Assembly: GCA_944389555.1 (NCBI GenBank)
Contig: CALXMU010000001.1
Span: 132,676-196,675, forward strand
Direction of reading: 5' to 3'
Source of the DNA: an uncultured Alphaproteobacteria bacterium
GTDB lineage: Bacteria; Pseudomonadota; Alphaproteobacteria; Rs-D84
Length of the DNA stretch: 64,000 bases
The translations under genes and the position numbers were made by a program. Below are positions 1,786 through 59,906 of the stretch, piece after piece. Numbering within the stretch: the first letter of the stretch is position 1; every line of letters starts with the position of its first letter. Below the pieces are notes generated by a model. That model was given only the letters and a program-made list of their open reading frames with translations, did no database searches and had not been told where the DNA came from.

Positions 1786-3570
1786 TTATTTTTCGCTTTT
1801 TTGTTTTAATAAACTTTGTACGGCCAATGGAAAATCAGAACTTTTTGCAAGATAAGAACCGCTAACTAATAAATCTGCTCCTGCTTTCCAACATTTTTGC
1901 GCGGTTTCAGCGTTTATTCCGCCGTCAACAGAAATAAGATATTTTAAACCATACTTTTTTCTGGTCGCAACAAGTGCAGATATTTTTCTTAGACAGTTGT
2001 CGTCAAATTCTTGACCTGCTGCCCCTGGCGCAACAGCCATAATCATTATTTCATCAATTTCTCGAATTATTGGTTTTAATATTTCAATAGACGAGTCGGG
2101 ATTTAAAGCAACGCCGGCCCGTCTTCCGGCGGCATGTATGGTACGTATTGCTGCACGTACACCTGAAGTGTTTGTAGAAACAATAATTGTATTTGCACCG
2201 GCTTGTATGGCATCTGTTGCCCATACGTCAGGACTTTCTGTCATCAGATGAACATGTAGATGAGCAGGTGTGTGCGCGCGTATATATTTTAATTCTGAAA
2301 TACTTCCACGAATATTTTCTACGTATAATCCATCCATTATGTCTACATGAATCATTGATATTCCACCAGCCCTGAACGTGGAATATGTCGCAGCATTTTT
2401 CATATCAAAACATAAAGTACTTGGCATAATAGGTACGAATTGAATTTTCTGTTTTTTCTTTCGCGGTTTGAATATAGACGTAATACGTGTATAGATATTA
2501 TTTAATTTTGCACTGCGCGCTTCATATGCTTTGCGATGATTTGATTCCGCATTCCATATATATTCTGATAACGCTTGAACGGATGCCTGACGAGTAGCAT
2601 TTTTAACGGGAATACCAAATAGGTTTTCAATAAAATCCGTCATAGCCTCCATTTCTGCGCCACCACCAGATATTATTATCTGGTTCAGTGTCGTATGCTT
2701 GAAAGGGGTTGCGCAGGCTTCTTTGATTCTTTCACATACATCAATTATGTTCGGTACAATTATATTATTTATGTCGGCGCGTGAAAAGTCGTACGCTGTA
2801 TCTGCAGGGGTAAATCTGTCCATTTCTTTGGGCATTAAACCACCTACATTTTTCTTTATTCTTTCCGCTTCGTCAAAAGTAATATTTAATTTTTCTGCGA
2901 TATCGTTCGTTACGTCTGTACCGCCAAAAGGAATTTTCTGAAAGAATATAGGTCCGTTGTCAAGCCATATAGAAACGCTAGTAAATTGTGCGCCGAAATC
3001 TATATACATTTCGGCTTGTTTCTTTTTATGGTGCATGGCGTTTTGTAAGAACTGCGGATCATAAAAAGAATACGGCTGAATGTGCGCTGCATGTAAAGTT
3101 GAGGTCATTTCAGACATGGAGTCTGTTGAATAAAAAATTGCTCCAAATATAGCCGTTAAACCGGTATCTGTGTATCCGATTGGTGTATATAATTTAGGTA
3201 TATTCGGCGTTTCATACCTTAGCGGAATAATATGTATCGGGTAATAACCATCAGGCGGCGTAATCTGAGAAATCATTGAGGCCACATCAGATTGGTTGAT
3301 TTTATGTTCTCCGCGCCATTTTTTTGCTTTCGGGCTAATTTTGAATATTGCCGAACCAAAATTACCTGTTATATATGCACTATCAAAACTATCACCGATT
3401 TGATGTTCTAATTCGTCTATAACTGATTTTAAAGCGAATACAGTATCGAAACTATCAATTTCATACATTGCAGATTTTGCAATATGCCCAGAACGTATAC
3501 GATGGGCTATACCACGTACACCACTAGTACCAATGTCTAAGCACAAAAAAGACGAATCTGCCAGGTTCAT
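1786..3570 (-). CDS. FtsA fused to ribulose-phosphate 3-epimerase
   Basis: The 594-residue product joins two normally separate proteins in one frame. Residues 1-372 read as FtsA, the actin-like protein that anchors FtsZ to the membrane. The phosphate-1 motif is LDIGTSGVRG, phosphate-2 is YIDFGAQFTSV (about 189-199), and the adenosine motif is ISGGGAE (about 300-306). A basic amphipathic stretch at about 355-373 (LNNIYTRITSIFKPRKKK) resembles the membrane-targeting helix that normally ends FtsA. Residues 376-594 read as Rpe, the pentose-phosphate epimerase interconverting ribulose-5-P and xylulose-5-P. They keep the PST serine (384), H408, D410, H441 of HLM and D549 of VDGG. The usual PGFGGQ loop reads PGAAGQ. 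ftsQ lies nine bases upstream and no ftsZ follows. Both domain calls are firm; whether the product is cleaved or independently initiated is unknown. Confidence 0.9.
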   Translation of the reverse strand: MNLADSSFLCLDIGTSGVRGIAHRIRSGHIAKSAMYEIDSFDTVFALKSVIDELEHQIGDSFDSAYITGNFGSAIFKISPKAKKWRGEHKINQSDVASMISQITPPDGYYPIHIIPLRYETPNIPKLYTPIGYTDTGLTAIFGAIFYSTDSMSEMTSTLHAAHIQPYSFYDPQFLQNAMHHKKKQAEMYIDFGAQFTSVSIWLDNGPIFFQKIPFGGTDVTNDIAEKLNITFDEAERIKKNVGGLMPKEMDRFTPADTAYDFSRADINNIIVPNIIDVCERIKEACATPFKHTTLNQIIISGGGAEMEAMTDFIENLFGIPVKNATRQASVQALSEYIWNAESNHRKAYEARSAKLNNIYTRITSIFKPRKKKQKIQFVPIMPSTLCFDMKNAATYSTFRAGGISMIHVDIMDGLYVENIRGSISELKYIRAHTPAHLHVHLMTESPDVWATDAIQAGANTIIVSTNTSGVRAAIRTIHAAGRRAGVALNPDSSIEILKPIIREIDEIMIMAVAPGAAGQEFDDNCLRKISALVATRKKYGLKYLISVDGGINAETAQKCWKAGADLLVSGSYLAKSSDFPLAVQSLLKQKSEK

Positions 3571-3579
3571 TTCAAAAGT

Positions 3580-4260
3580 TTATTTTACTAGTATTCTTGC
3601 ATCATCACGCATATCAATTACGTTGATATCTTTTGATAATATTTTATGGTTCTTGTCCAGAATCATTAAACTTGCGATGGCAGCAGACGGATCTTTTTCT
3701 GGTAACATGACTGTAATACCATCTGTTGTGTAAAGGTTCCATCTTCTGTCTTCAATGTATTCTAGGTAATCTAACTTTTCAACAAGATTGTGCGCCGTAT
3801 TAGTTATTTCGGTTATATCGTTTGGCACGTTACCACGAAATACTACAGTATTTTTGTTTCTTTCTTCCGTTGGTTTGTTTACAATTGTACCGTCTGCGGA
3901 TAATGGGTAATATAAGGTCCCATCTGTCCATTGAGCAACGGCTTGATATAACTGAACGTGTATAGAAATGTTACCAGAAGGCAAGCGTCGTGTCGCCGCC
4001 TTTTTTACACCAGGTGTTGAAGTTATTCTAGCGTTTATAGTTTCAAGTGTTTCACCATATGCACGAGTTCCCGGTGCAATCGCAGCCGCGGCAGCAACAG
4101 GAGTTAAATCTTTATTTGGAATGTCTGCAGATATAGTTAAACTTCTTATATAAGATAAATTACTGCGACCTGTGCAGACCATAATTACGCGCGTCGCAAA
4201 ATATACGGATAGAATAATTGCGACGACGAAATATAACCAAAACCATATTGAACGTTTCAT
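3580..4260 (-). CDS. ftsQ: Cell division protein FtsQ
   Basis: FtsQ is a bitopic inner-membrane divisome protein that links FtsA/FtsK to FtsL, FtsB and FtsW/I. The 226-residue product has a short cytoplasmic N-terminus and one transmembrane segment at about residues 5-27. It is followed by a POTRA-like region (about 38-105) with the typical GVKKAATRRLPSG motif, then the beta domain. It is slightly shorter than most alphaproteobacterial FtsQ. The gene lies directly upstream of ftsA-rpe, the classical ftsQ-ftsA order of the division cluster. murC, murB, ddl and ftsZ are not adjacent, so the cluster is broken up here. The call rests on the motif, topology and gene order together. Confidence 0.85.
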   Translation of the reverse strand: MKRSIWFWLYFVVAIILSVYFATRVIMVCTGRSNLSYIRSLTISADIPNKDLTPVAAAAAIAPGTRAYGETLETINARITSTPGVKKAATRRLPSGNISIHVQLYQAVAQWTDGTLYYPLSADGTIVNKPTEERNKNTVVFRGNVPNDITEITNTAHNLVEKLDYLEYIEDRRWNLYTTDGITVMLPEKDPSAAIASLMILDKNHKILSKDINVIDMRDDARILVK

Positions 4261-57878: not shown

Positions 57879-57893
57879 TTATAGGTGCCTAAT

Positions 57894-59906
57894 ATGAAAG
57901 TATATGTAAATTATAACGATAACCGTTGGCATAAATATAAAATAGATTTTGTTAAAATTGCTAATGCCGCAGCATTAGCAGTTGCACCTGAGGCTGAGGT
58001 ATCCATTACTTTAACTAATGATGAAGAAATTCATAAGTTGAATAAACAATATCGTCATATAGATAAGCCGACAAATGTTCTGTCGTTTGAATTGGGTGAT
58101 GATATTTTACTAGGTGATATTTATATATCATTAGATACAGTAGTTAAAGAATCTAAGCAAGAAAATATTTCTGTTCAAGATCATACTGCTCATATGATTG
58201 TGCATGGTATGTTACATTTACAAGGTTATGACCATATTAAAGAATCTGATGCTGTGATTATGGAATACAAAGAAACAAAAATTCTAGAAAAAATGAATAT
58301 AAAAAATCCCTATGTAGACAAATCCGCCGTATGCAGAGATTTTTCTTGTTGTCCTGGCAGTAAATTTTTATCTTTTTTTAAATGCATAAAAATTAAACAA
58401 AATGGGTTATCTCAATATATATTTATGGCTTTGTTGGGGGGCATGGCAGCATTAGGATTTGCCCCGACTCATTTTTGGTGGTTGACAGTAATAGGATTTG
58501 CTTGTGCGTATAAGCTGGTTATTCGTGATACTAACAGACCTAGCGTTTTTAAAGCTTTCTTACGCGTGTTTCCGTTTAGTGCAGTGTATGCTGTTGCGAT
58601 GTTTTGGTGGGTTGTAAATTCAATATACGTTGTACCAGAATTGGCAGAACAATTTGCAATATGGACTATACCTGCCTTGCTTGGAATAGGACTTTTGGGA
58701 GGAATAATATTCGCAATACCTTTTGTGGTAATAATGCGTATATGCACGTTTCCGCCGTGTAGAGCAATTTTATTTGCGTCAACTTGGACTTTTATTTTGT
58801 GGTTGCGAGAATGGTTTTTGACTGGGTTCCCGTGGAATCCTATTGCGAATATTCTAATGCCGTATCCTATTTTGGCCAACTCTATGGCTTTATGGGGGGC
58901 TTTGGGAACAACTTTCGTTATCATGGGAATTATCGCAATTATTGTAGAACTATTCGGTGATTATAAAAATAAATATTCTTGGACTGTGTTAGTTATATTC
59001 TTATTATTGGGAATTGCTGGGGGATATTACGGGTACAAAAATATTAAATGCTCACAAAATAATGAAAATATTAGCCAGACGATTCGCATCGTTCAACCGG
59101 CTAGAAGCGCAGTACAAAAAGCTTCTCATTCAAGAGAAGAGGCGATTAGAAATGCAACAGAAAACGTAAGGGGCTTAATAGACTTAGCGAAAAATTCAGG
59201 GAATCCGGATTTAATCGTTTTTCCTGAAACTTCGTATCCTTTCGTAGTTATGAATAATGATGATATGCCAATTGCTGAGGCGCTGGACAATAATATTATT
59301 ATCGGGGCAACTTCTTATTCCGAAGGAAGGTTATATAATTCAATGCTTGTTGCCGCCCCTAATGGAAGAATTCAAAAGATATATAGTAAGTCTCATTTAG
59401 TCCCATTCGGTGAATATAGACCTTTTGGTGATATTATTCCGACACCAGGTCAATTATCAAAAGGAGCAGGGGCAGAAATTATAAATGTTGATATAAATGG
59501 TCGCTTGTTTACTTTTGCACCGGCAATTTGTTATGAAATAATTTTTTCTGATTCTTTGATACCAGATGATGAAATGCCAGATGCCATTATAAATATTACA
59601 AATGATACTTGGTTCGGTGATACACCGGGAACTTATCAGCATCTGGATATGGTTCGTAGATATGCTATTGAATCGGGGGTGCCAATTGTCAGGGCCAATT
59701 ATTCCGGAGTTAGCGCTTTTATCGCTTCTGATGGAACTATATTATCTGAAATTCCAGTGGGGACGCCTGGTTATATGGATGGTGTTGTATATGGAGATCA
59801 TATGACTGTCTATCGTGAAATTGGTCGTGATGGTTGGATGTTTATAATTTTGCTTTTTGCGTGCTTTGGAATAATTCCAATTTATATGCTTCAAAAGCGA
59901 AAGTGA
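57894..59906 (+). CDS. YbeY endoribonuclease fused to apolipoprotein N-acyltransferase
   Basis: One 670-residue frame joins two enzymes. Residues 1-148 are YbeY, the zinc RNase of 16S rRNA 3'-end maturation, with H104, H108 and H114 in HGMLHLQGYDH. Residues from about 170 to 670 are Lnt, the last enzyme of lipoprotein maturation. It has an N-terminal membrane region of about six to seven helices and a nitrilase domain with E445 (FPETSYPF), K499 (YSKSHLVPFGEY) and C546 (ICYE), plus a final helix. A linker with four clustered cysteines lies between (about 147-165). ATG 57894 follows AGGTG. In many Alphaproteobacteria ybeY, a CorC-like gene and lnt are neighbours; here the CorC gene is absent and the other two are one protein. 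Confidence 0.9.
   Translation: MKVYVNYNDNRWHKYKIDFVKIANAAALAVAPEAEVSITLTNDEEIHKLNKQYRHIDKPTNVLSFELGDDILLGDIYISLDTVVKESKQENISVQDHTAHMIVHGMLHLQGYDHIKESDAVIMEYKETKILEKMNIKNPYVDKSAVCRDFSCCPGSKFLSFFKCIKIKQNGLSQYIFMALLGGMAALGFAPTHFWWLTVIGFACAYKLVIRDTNRPSVFKAFLRVFPFSAVYAVAMFWWVVNSIYVVPELAEQFAIWTIPALLGIGLLGGIIFAIPFVVIMRICTFPPCRAILFASTWTFILWLREWFLTGFPWNPIANILMPYPILANSMALWGALGTTFVIMGIIAIIVELFGDYKNKYSWTVLVIFLLLGIAGGYYGYKNIKCSQNNENISQTIRIVQPARSAVQKASHSREEAIRNATENVRGLIDLAKNSGNPDLIVFPETSYPFVVMNNDDMPIAEALDNNIIIGATSYSEGRLYNSMLVAAPNGRIQKIYSKSHLVPFGEYRPFGDIIPTPGQLSKGAGAEIINVDINGRLFTFAPAICYEIIFSDSLIPDDEMPDAIINITNDTWFGDTPGTYQHLDMVRRYAIESGVPIVRANYSGVSAFIASDGTILSEIPVGTPGYMDGVVYGDHMTVYREIGRDGWMFIILLFACFGIIPIYMLQKRK

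Follow-up and report, generated by a model that had tools for sequence, protein, structure and literature searches.

A family-wide fusion of FtsA with ribulose-phosphate 3-epimerase in the Candidatus Enterousia group, in genomes without a recognisable FtsZ

Introduction

Several metabolic enzymes are known to touch bacterial cell division, among them UgtP, OpgH and GdhZ/KidO, all of which are separate proteins that act on FtsZ. Solved structures represent both FtsA, the actin-like divisome anchor whose usual partner is FtsZ (7q6f, 1e4g, 4a2a), and ribulose-phosphate 3-epimerase, or Rpe (2fli, 1rpx, 3ovp). Chlamydia, Wolbachia group J and Planctopirus limnophila lack ftsA along with ftsZ (PMC10591338, PMC12283558, PMC4164004).

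The Candidatus Enterousia group (order Rs-D84, Alphaproteobacteria) consists of gut bacteria with very small, reduced genomes (PMC12306168) and is the host of the gene described in this work, in which ftsA and rpe form a single open frame. No description of a fusion between FtsA and ribulose-phosphate 3-epimerase was found in the literature searched, whose coverage is incomplete, in agreement with an earlier note on this DNA whose author knew of none. Relative to that literature, the fusion is a new natural case, and it extends over a whole family.

The fusion gene and its distribution

The window (the whole stretch of DNA that was analysed, 64,000 nucleotides) contains the uninterrupted FtsA-Rpe frame at the position and on the strand that the earlier note had given. 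Its parts, and the gene directly upstream, are as follows.

1786..3570, minus strand: gene for the ftsA-rpe fusion, with 594 codons between an ATG start and a TAA stop
2545..3570, minus strand: FtsA-fold domain, residues 1-342 (PF14450; match to FtsA 7q6f across model residues 6-341, Z 33.1)
2470..2544, minus strand: amphipathic helix, residues 343-367, where an FtsA has its C-terminal membrane-targeting helix; a helix in the AlphaFold2 model
2431..2469, minus strand: flexible K/R-rich linker, residues 368-380 (pLDDT <50 at 369-375)
1801..2430, minus strand: ribulose-phosphate 3-epimerase TIM barrel, residues 381-590 (PF00834, PRK05581; 2fli, Z 32.8)
3580..4260, minus strand: ftsQ (PF03799, E 2e-11), separated from the fusion gene by a 9-base gap

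This is a real FtsA-Rpe fusion and not an artefact. A search of related genomes, which the earlier note had proposed, matched the fusion in 138 of the 142 genomes of the Enterousia family and in all 13 sampled genera (13/13), at identities from 89% down to 31%. In nearly all of the matching genomes both halves are full length and lie in one undisrupted open frame; in the others, a contig end truncates the gene. The frame is likewise intact in assemblies made independently from samples of chicken, horse, ruminant and other origin, among them the single-contig chromosome OX097180.1. Since it is kept so widely, chance and a local frameshift are excluded, and the reading of the open frame as an assembly error, a frameshift error or a chance product, already refuted, retains practically no probability. 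Outside the family, no such fusion was present among the matches listed for 385 genomes of the class, where full-length fusions would rank first.

In close pairs of genomes, dN/dS is about 0.04-0.09 in both the FtsA and the Rpe halves, with mostly higher values in the linker. These ratios indicate that the fusion is under strong purifying selection across the family.

The two halves and the region that joins them

Pfam assigns residues 189-327 of the window protein to PF14450 (FtsA) and residues 381-574 to PF00834 (Ribul_P_3_epim, E 5.9e-45). The AlphaFold2 model, based on 72 aligned members, has a mean pLDDT of 90.5 and a pTM of 0.61, and comprises two confident domains, the helix at 343-367 and the flexible stretch at 368-380.

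The FtsA half scores low against the family profile. TIGR01174 (ftsA, NCBIfam) matches residues 30-341 with 84.5 bits, below its cut-off of 175.85, and in four family members it gives 84, 57, 31 and 28 bits, compared with 97-280 in the recognisable FtsAs of sister families. Among the latter, f2, f3 and f4-g4 lie above the cut-off (243-280), and f6 (162, 135) and f4-g9 (97) lie below it. SHS2_FTSA (PF02491) has no reported match in the window protein and is above its cut-off in another family member (L141); in the window protein, that region is covered by the structural match to FtsA. The best solved structure is FtsA 7q6f (Z 33.1, rmsd 2.8, 333 aligned). The fold includes domain 1C, and the structure ranking places FtsA at Z 30-33, PilM at about 20-26 and MreB at about 21, and on this ranking an MreB or PilM identity for the FtsA half was rejected. 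Its own genome was sampled for division and metabolism genes by searches and in selected stretches; there the fusion is the only FtsA, the second PF14450 match being MreB.

The nucleotide motifs that had been recognised in the FtsA half are indeed present, at 94-100% conservation in 100 sequences. They comprise phosphate-1 (D12 96%, G14 100%), phosphate-2 (D191 96%, G193 99%, T197 94%) and the adenosine motif (G302-G304, 95-100%); the roles of these residues, and of the Rpe active-site residues listed below, are presumably those generally known for the two families. Genus g13 carries Tyr at the D12 position. Mean column identity is 0.62 in the FtsA half vs 0.77 in the Rpe half, which makes the former the less conserved of the two. 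The FtsA half keeps its fold, its motifs and its selection despite the low profile score.

The FtsA part is closed by the amphipathic helix at residues 343-367, as expected of an FtsA, and its helical moment, 0.5-0.97 in the family members listed, resembles that of the E. coli membrane-targeting sequence (MTS; 0.64 on the same scale). The "membrane-helix-like stretch" of the earlier note is thus borne out as an FtsA-type targeting helix, but not as a transmembrane helix, the segment being amphipathic and basic. Its position inside the protein, followed by Rpe, instead of at the end, was described correctly. Separate FtsAs of f2, f3 and f6 end at this very position in a classic amphipathic helix (e.g., KVKKWIDDNF), and the N-terminus of the separate f2 Rpe, FKKRKQKIQISPS, resembles the fusion linker, FKPRKKKQKIQFVPIMPS. 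Family linkers contain a mean of 8.1 K+R within the 22 residues preceding PST, and the stretch from residue 335 to 386 is nearly fixed in length (50-54 in 91/100 sequences). The linker is strongly hydrophobic and shorter in genus g13, and the helix is shortened in genus g19. As the internal helix would hold the FtsA half at the membrane, the epimerase would be tethered there too, and in most members the fusion is predicted to be a membrane-tethered bifunctional protein. Given the low ftsA score, the Tyr in g13 and the short helix in g19, some members may lack membrane binding or ATPase activity.

The junction also bears on a different reading, namely that one gene gives two proteins, Rpe being freed and the two functions uncoupled either by an internal start around codon 382 or by proteolytic cleavage of the linker. 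The disordered basic linker at 368-380 would suit such cleavage, and 56/72 members have ATG or TTG at position 382. However, the other 16/72 have no start codon at this position, and a protein begun there would lack a piece of the first barrel strand (381-384); we consider this reading quite unlikely. No Shine-Dalgarno-like motif was found near codon 382 and none before the fusion start either, so that the motif does not discriminate in this matter. As a separate observation, a Shine-Dalgarno-like 4-mer lies upstream of the fusion start in 0/72 members, and 7 of the 45 long open reading frames of the window have one.

The Rpe half is assigned to its family by PF00834 (153.5 bits, cut-off 21.1) and by PRK05581 (Rpe subfamily, NCBIfam; 180 bits, cut-off 165), and reaches 156 bits with the narrower TIGR01163, below the cut-off of 212.6. 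Its best solved-structure match is 2fli (Z 32.8, rmsd 1.5, 214 aligned), with a TIM barrel. The metal and catalytic residues S384, H408, D410, H441 and D549 are 100% invariant in 100 distinct sequences, which upholds the claim of a full Rpe with its metal-binding and catalytic residues, and on this sequence evidence it is very likely that the half has epimerase activity. Its own genome has no canonical Rpe gene other than the fused one.

Transketolase was found in 133/142 genomes of order Rs-D84, and its presence in most family members means that Rpe can link transketolase to ribose-5-phosphate supply. An "enzyme without a pathway" as a family trait was rejected on the same count. A transketolase match is absent in the own genome (G000), G012 and G013, while nearly all relatives have one; in these few genomes, either a gap or real loss of the gene may be the reason.

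A few genomes of the family, and one of f4, carry a 225-aa Rpe-like paralogue of about 30% identity (L219, L221, L222, L223). Its VDGGIN is replaced by LDGCVS, LDGQVS or similar, and it forms its own clade in the tree. The idea of a second canonical Rpe that makes the fused one redundant was rejected on these two grounds.

Origin of the fusion

The earlier note had held that relatives with separate ftsA and rpe genes at this locus would speak against the fusion. Such relatives exist outside the family and none were found within it, and they explain how the fusion arose instead of refuting it. In sister families f2, f3 and f6 (L131, L132, L133, L139), rpe is a separate gene directly after ftsA. 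There the two genes touch or share 1-4 bases, or, in f2, rpe probably begins 16 bases past the ftsA stop. In family f4 the two flank an ABC transporter gene. An ftsQ-like gene precedes ftsA in the sister families too. The fused Rpe domains form one clade in the tree with support of 100/99, and the sister group of this clade is f3 plus f6, with weak support (67/86). In G037, Rpe appeared as part of an 891-aa frame. Pfam matches nothing in the portion upstream of Rpe, which seems to be a spurious reading frame, and this candidate was set aside.

Separate adjacent genes in the sisters, together with a single clade of fused Rpe domains, would fit one merger at the base of the Enterousia family as the simplest history. 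In the ancestor of the family, rpe would have lain directly after ftsA, touching it or overlapping it by a few bases, and the loss of the ftsA stop with a change of frame would have welded the two into one gene.

The same 64-kb window contains a second fusion of neighbouring genes, at 57885-59906 on the plus strand. This 673-aa frame joins the rRNA maturation RNase YbeY (TIGR00043) to apolipoprotein N-acyltransferase Lnt (TIGR00546), which are usual neighbours. The presence of YbeY-Lnt makes merger by genome compaction the sober reading of FtsA-Rpe as well. It suggests that adjacent genes merge readily in a compact genome and that a coupling of division and metabolism need not have been selected; the FtsA-Rpe fusion is probably tolerated rather than selected for such coupling.

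FtsZ and the remaining division genes

The FtsZ profile TIGR00065 matched 17/18 sister genomes at E <1e-84, the remaining one (G027) having a degenerate homologue without the GGGTGTG motif. In contrast to the sisters, none of 124 family genomes, the own genome and the single-contig chromosome (G074) included, gave a convincing FtsZ match in these profile searches, which were run on MAG assemblies alongside positive controls and leave room for a very divergent FtsZ elsewhere in the genome. Fragmentary matches of 11-16 bits occur in eight of the 124. The loss of a recognisable FtsZ therefore tracks the fusion-bearing family.

In several sister families, ftsZ stands beside or near a phage portal gene and not next to ftsA.

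L167:5764-7347: ftsZ near the portal gene
L169:3309-5060: ftsZ near the portal gene
L171:3818-5344: ftsZ near the portal gene, between two terminase pieces
L172:3533-5536: ftsZ near the portal gene

The portal cluster is kept in 53/60 family genomes, and an order-specific FtsZ profile found no match in the ftsZ slot at this cluster in the family loci inspected. With no recognisable FtsZ in the family and this slot empty, the placing of Rpe at the division ring by the earlier note finds no support. Beside the fusion, ftsQ and ftsK are kept despite the missing FtsZ.

The cluster itself is a T7-like phage structural cluster common to the order and mostly single copy (L203:9560-18210; in the own genome, C4 at about 152.5-161.2 kb). 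It contains the portal (PF12236), a terminase large subunit split into two genes, and tail proteins. Clusters of the same type occur at L205, L167, L169 and L171, that at L205 adding a major head protein and an endolysin. It is possibly a domesticated phage or a gene-transfer-agent-like element.

G027 (family f5) carries, besides its degenerate FtsZ homologue (L166:2019-3245), an FtsA homologue recognised by no FtsA profile (L150:2710-3816). It represents a second lineage of the order with eroded FtsZ and FtsA.

The absence of the FtsZ partner, together with the fall in TIGR01174 scores between the sisters and the family, is what might be seen if the FtsA half were a decaying remnant without a division role, retained because it forms a folded leader for an Rpe that is essential. 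We hold this to be very unlikely, as dN/dS in the FtsA half is similar to that in Rpe, the nucleotide motifs are kept, the FtsA fold is predicted with high confidence, and ftsQ and ftsK are retained.

At the other extreme, the fusion might be a selected scaffold, in which Rpe oligomers cluster FtsA heads on the membrane and the resulting actin-like scaffold replaces FtsZ, possibly with feedback from Rpe flux. Fusion and FtsZ absence alike extend through the whole family, and neither is seen in the sister families; the linker length is nearly fixed, the FtsA motifs are conserved, and several Rpe structures contain numerous chains in a single entry (2fli 12, 7b1w 12). However, the co-occurrence of fusion and FtsZ loss on one branch amounts to a single event, which is no proof of cause; of the two halves, FtsA is less well conserved, and the linker is shorter in g13 and g19. 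This reading is unlikely in our view, and it is distinctly improbable that, after FtsZ loss, membrane-bound FtsA clustered by the fused oligomeric epimerase came to act as a division scaffold and actin-like organiser of the divisome.

Proposed working of the fused protein

The explanation that we consider likely as a whole is a merger of neighbouring genes that yields a bifunctional, membrane-tethered FtsA-Rpe, probably tolerated, with an FtsA half that is independent of FtsZ. The gene would yield one protein of about 66 kDa. Its Rpe half would still interconvert ribulose-5-phosphate and xylulose-5-phosphate and, in most members, would connect transketolase with the supply of ribose-5-phosphate. 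The FtsA half would still bind ATP and sit on the inner face of the membrane by means of the internal amphipathic helix. In cells without FtsZ, any action of this half would be that of an actin-like factor, independent of FtsZ, which serves the remaining division proteins FtsQ and FtsK.

Comparison with known systems

The FtsA half shares with the solved FtsAs the fold including domain 1C, the nucleotide motifs and the amphipathic helix, with ftsQ upstream. It differs from them in that the helix is internal with Rpe after it, the score lies below the ftsA equivalog cut-off, and FtsZ was not found in the family. The Rpe half resembles known Rpes in its TIM barrel, its metal and catalytic residues and its full length; in contrast to them, it has FtsA at its N-terminus, and its lid loop reads PGAAGQ where PGFGGQ is common. 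Because the FtsA and Rpe halves are inseparable in inheritance, the tolerance or use of a large C-terminal cargo by FtsA becomes testable.

Like UgtP, OpgH and GdhZ/KidO, the fusion links a metabolic protein to division. Unlike in those systems, the enzyme is joined covalently, and the family has no recognisable FtsZ.

The family also resembles lineages with FtsZ-independent division (Chlamydia, Planctomycetes, some endosymbionts), as FtsZ is undetected while ftsQ, ftsK, MreB and wall-synthesis genes are retained. The FtsZ-less lineages described in the papers cited here usually lose ftsA too, whereas in the Enterousia family FtsA appears to outlive FtsZ. The family is thus a natural test of FtsA function without FtsZ, which we rank above the importance of the fusion itself: in contrast to Chlamydia, Wolbachia group J and Planctopirus limnophila, it keeps ftsA, in fused form.
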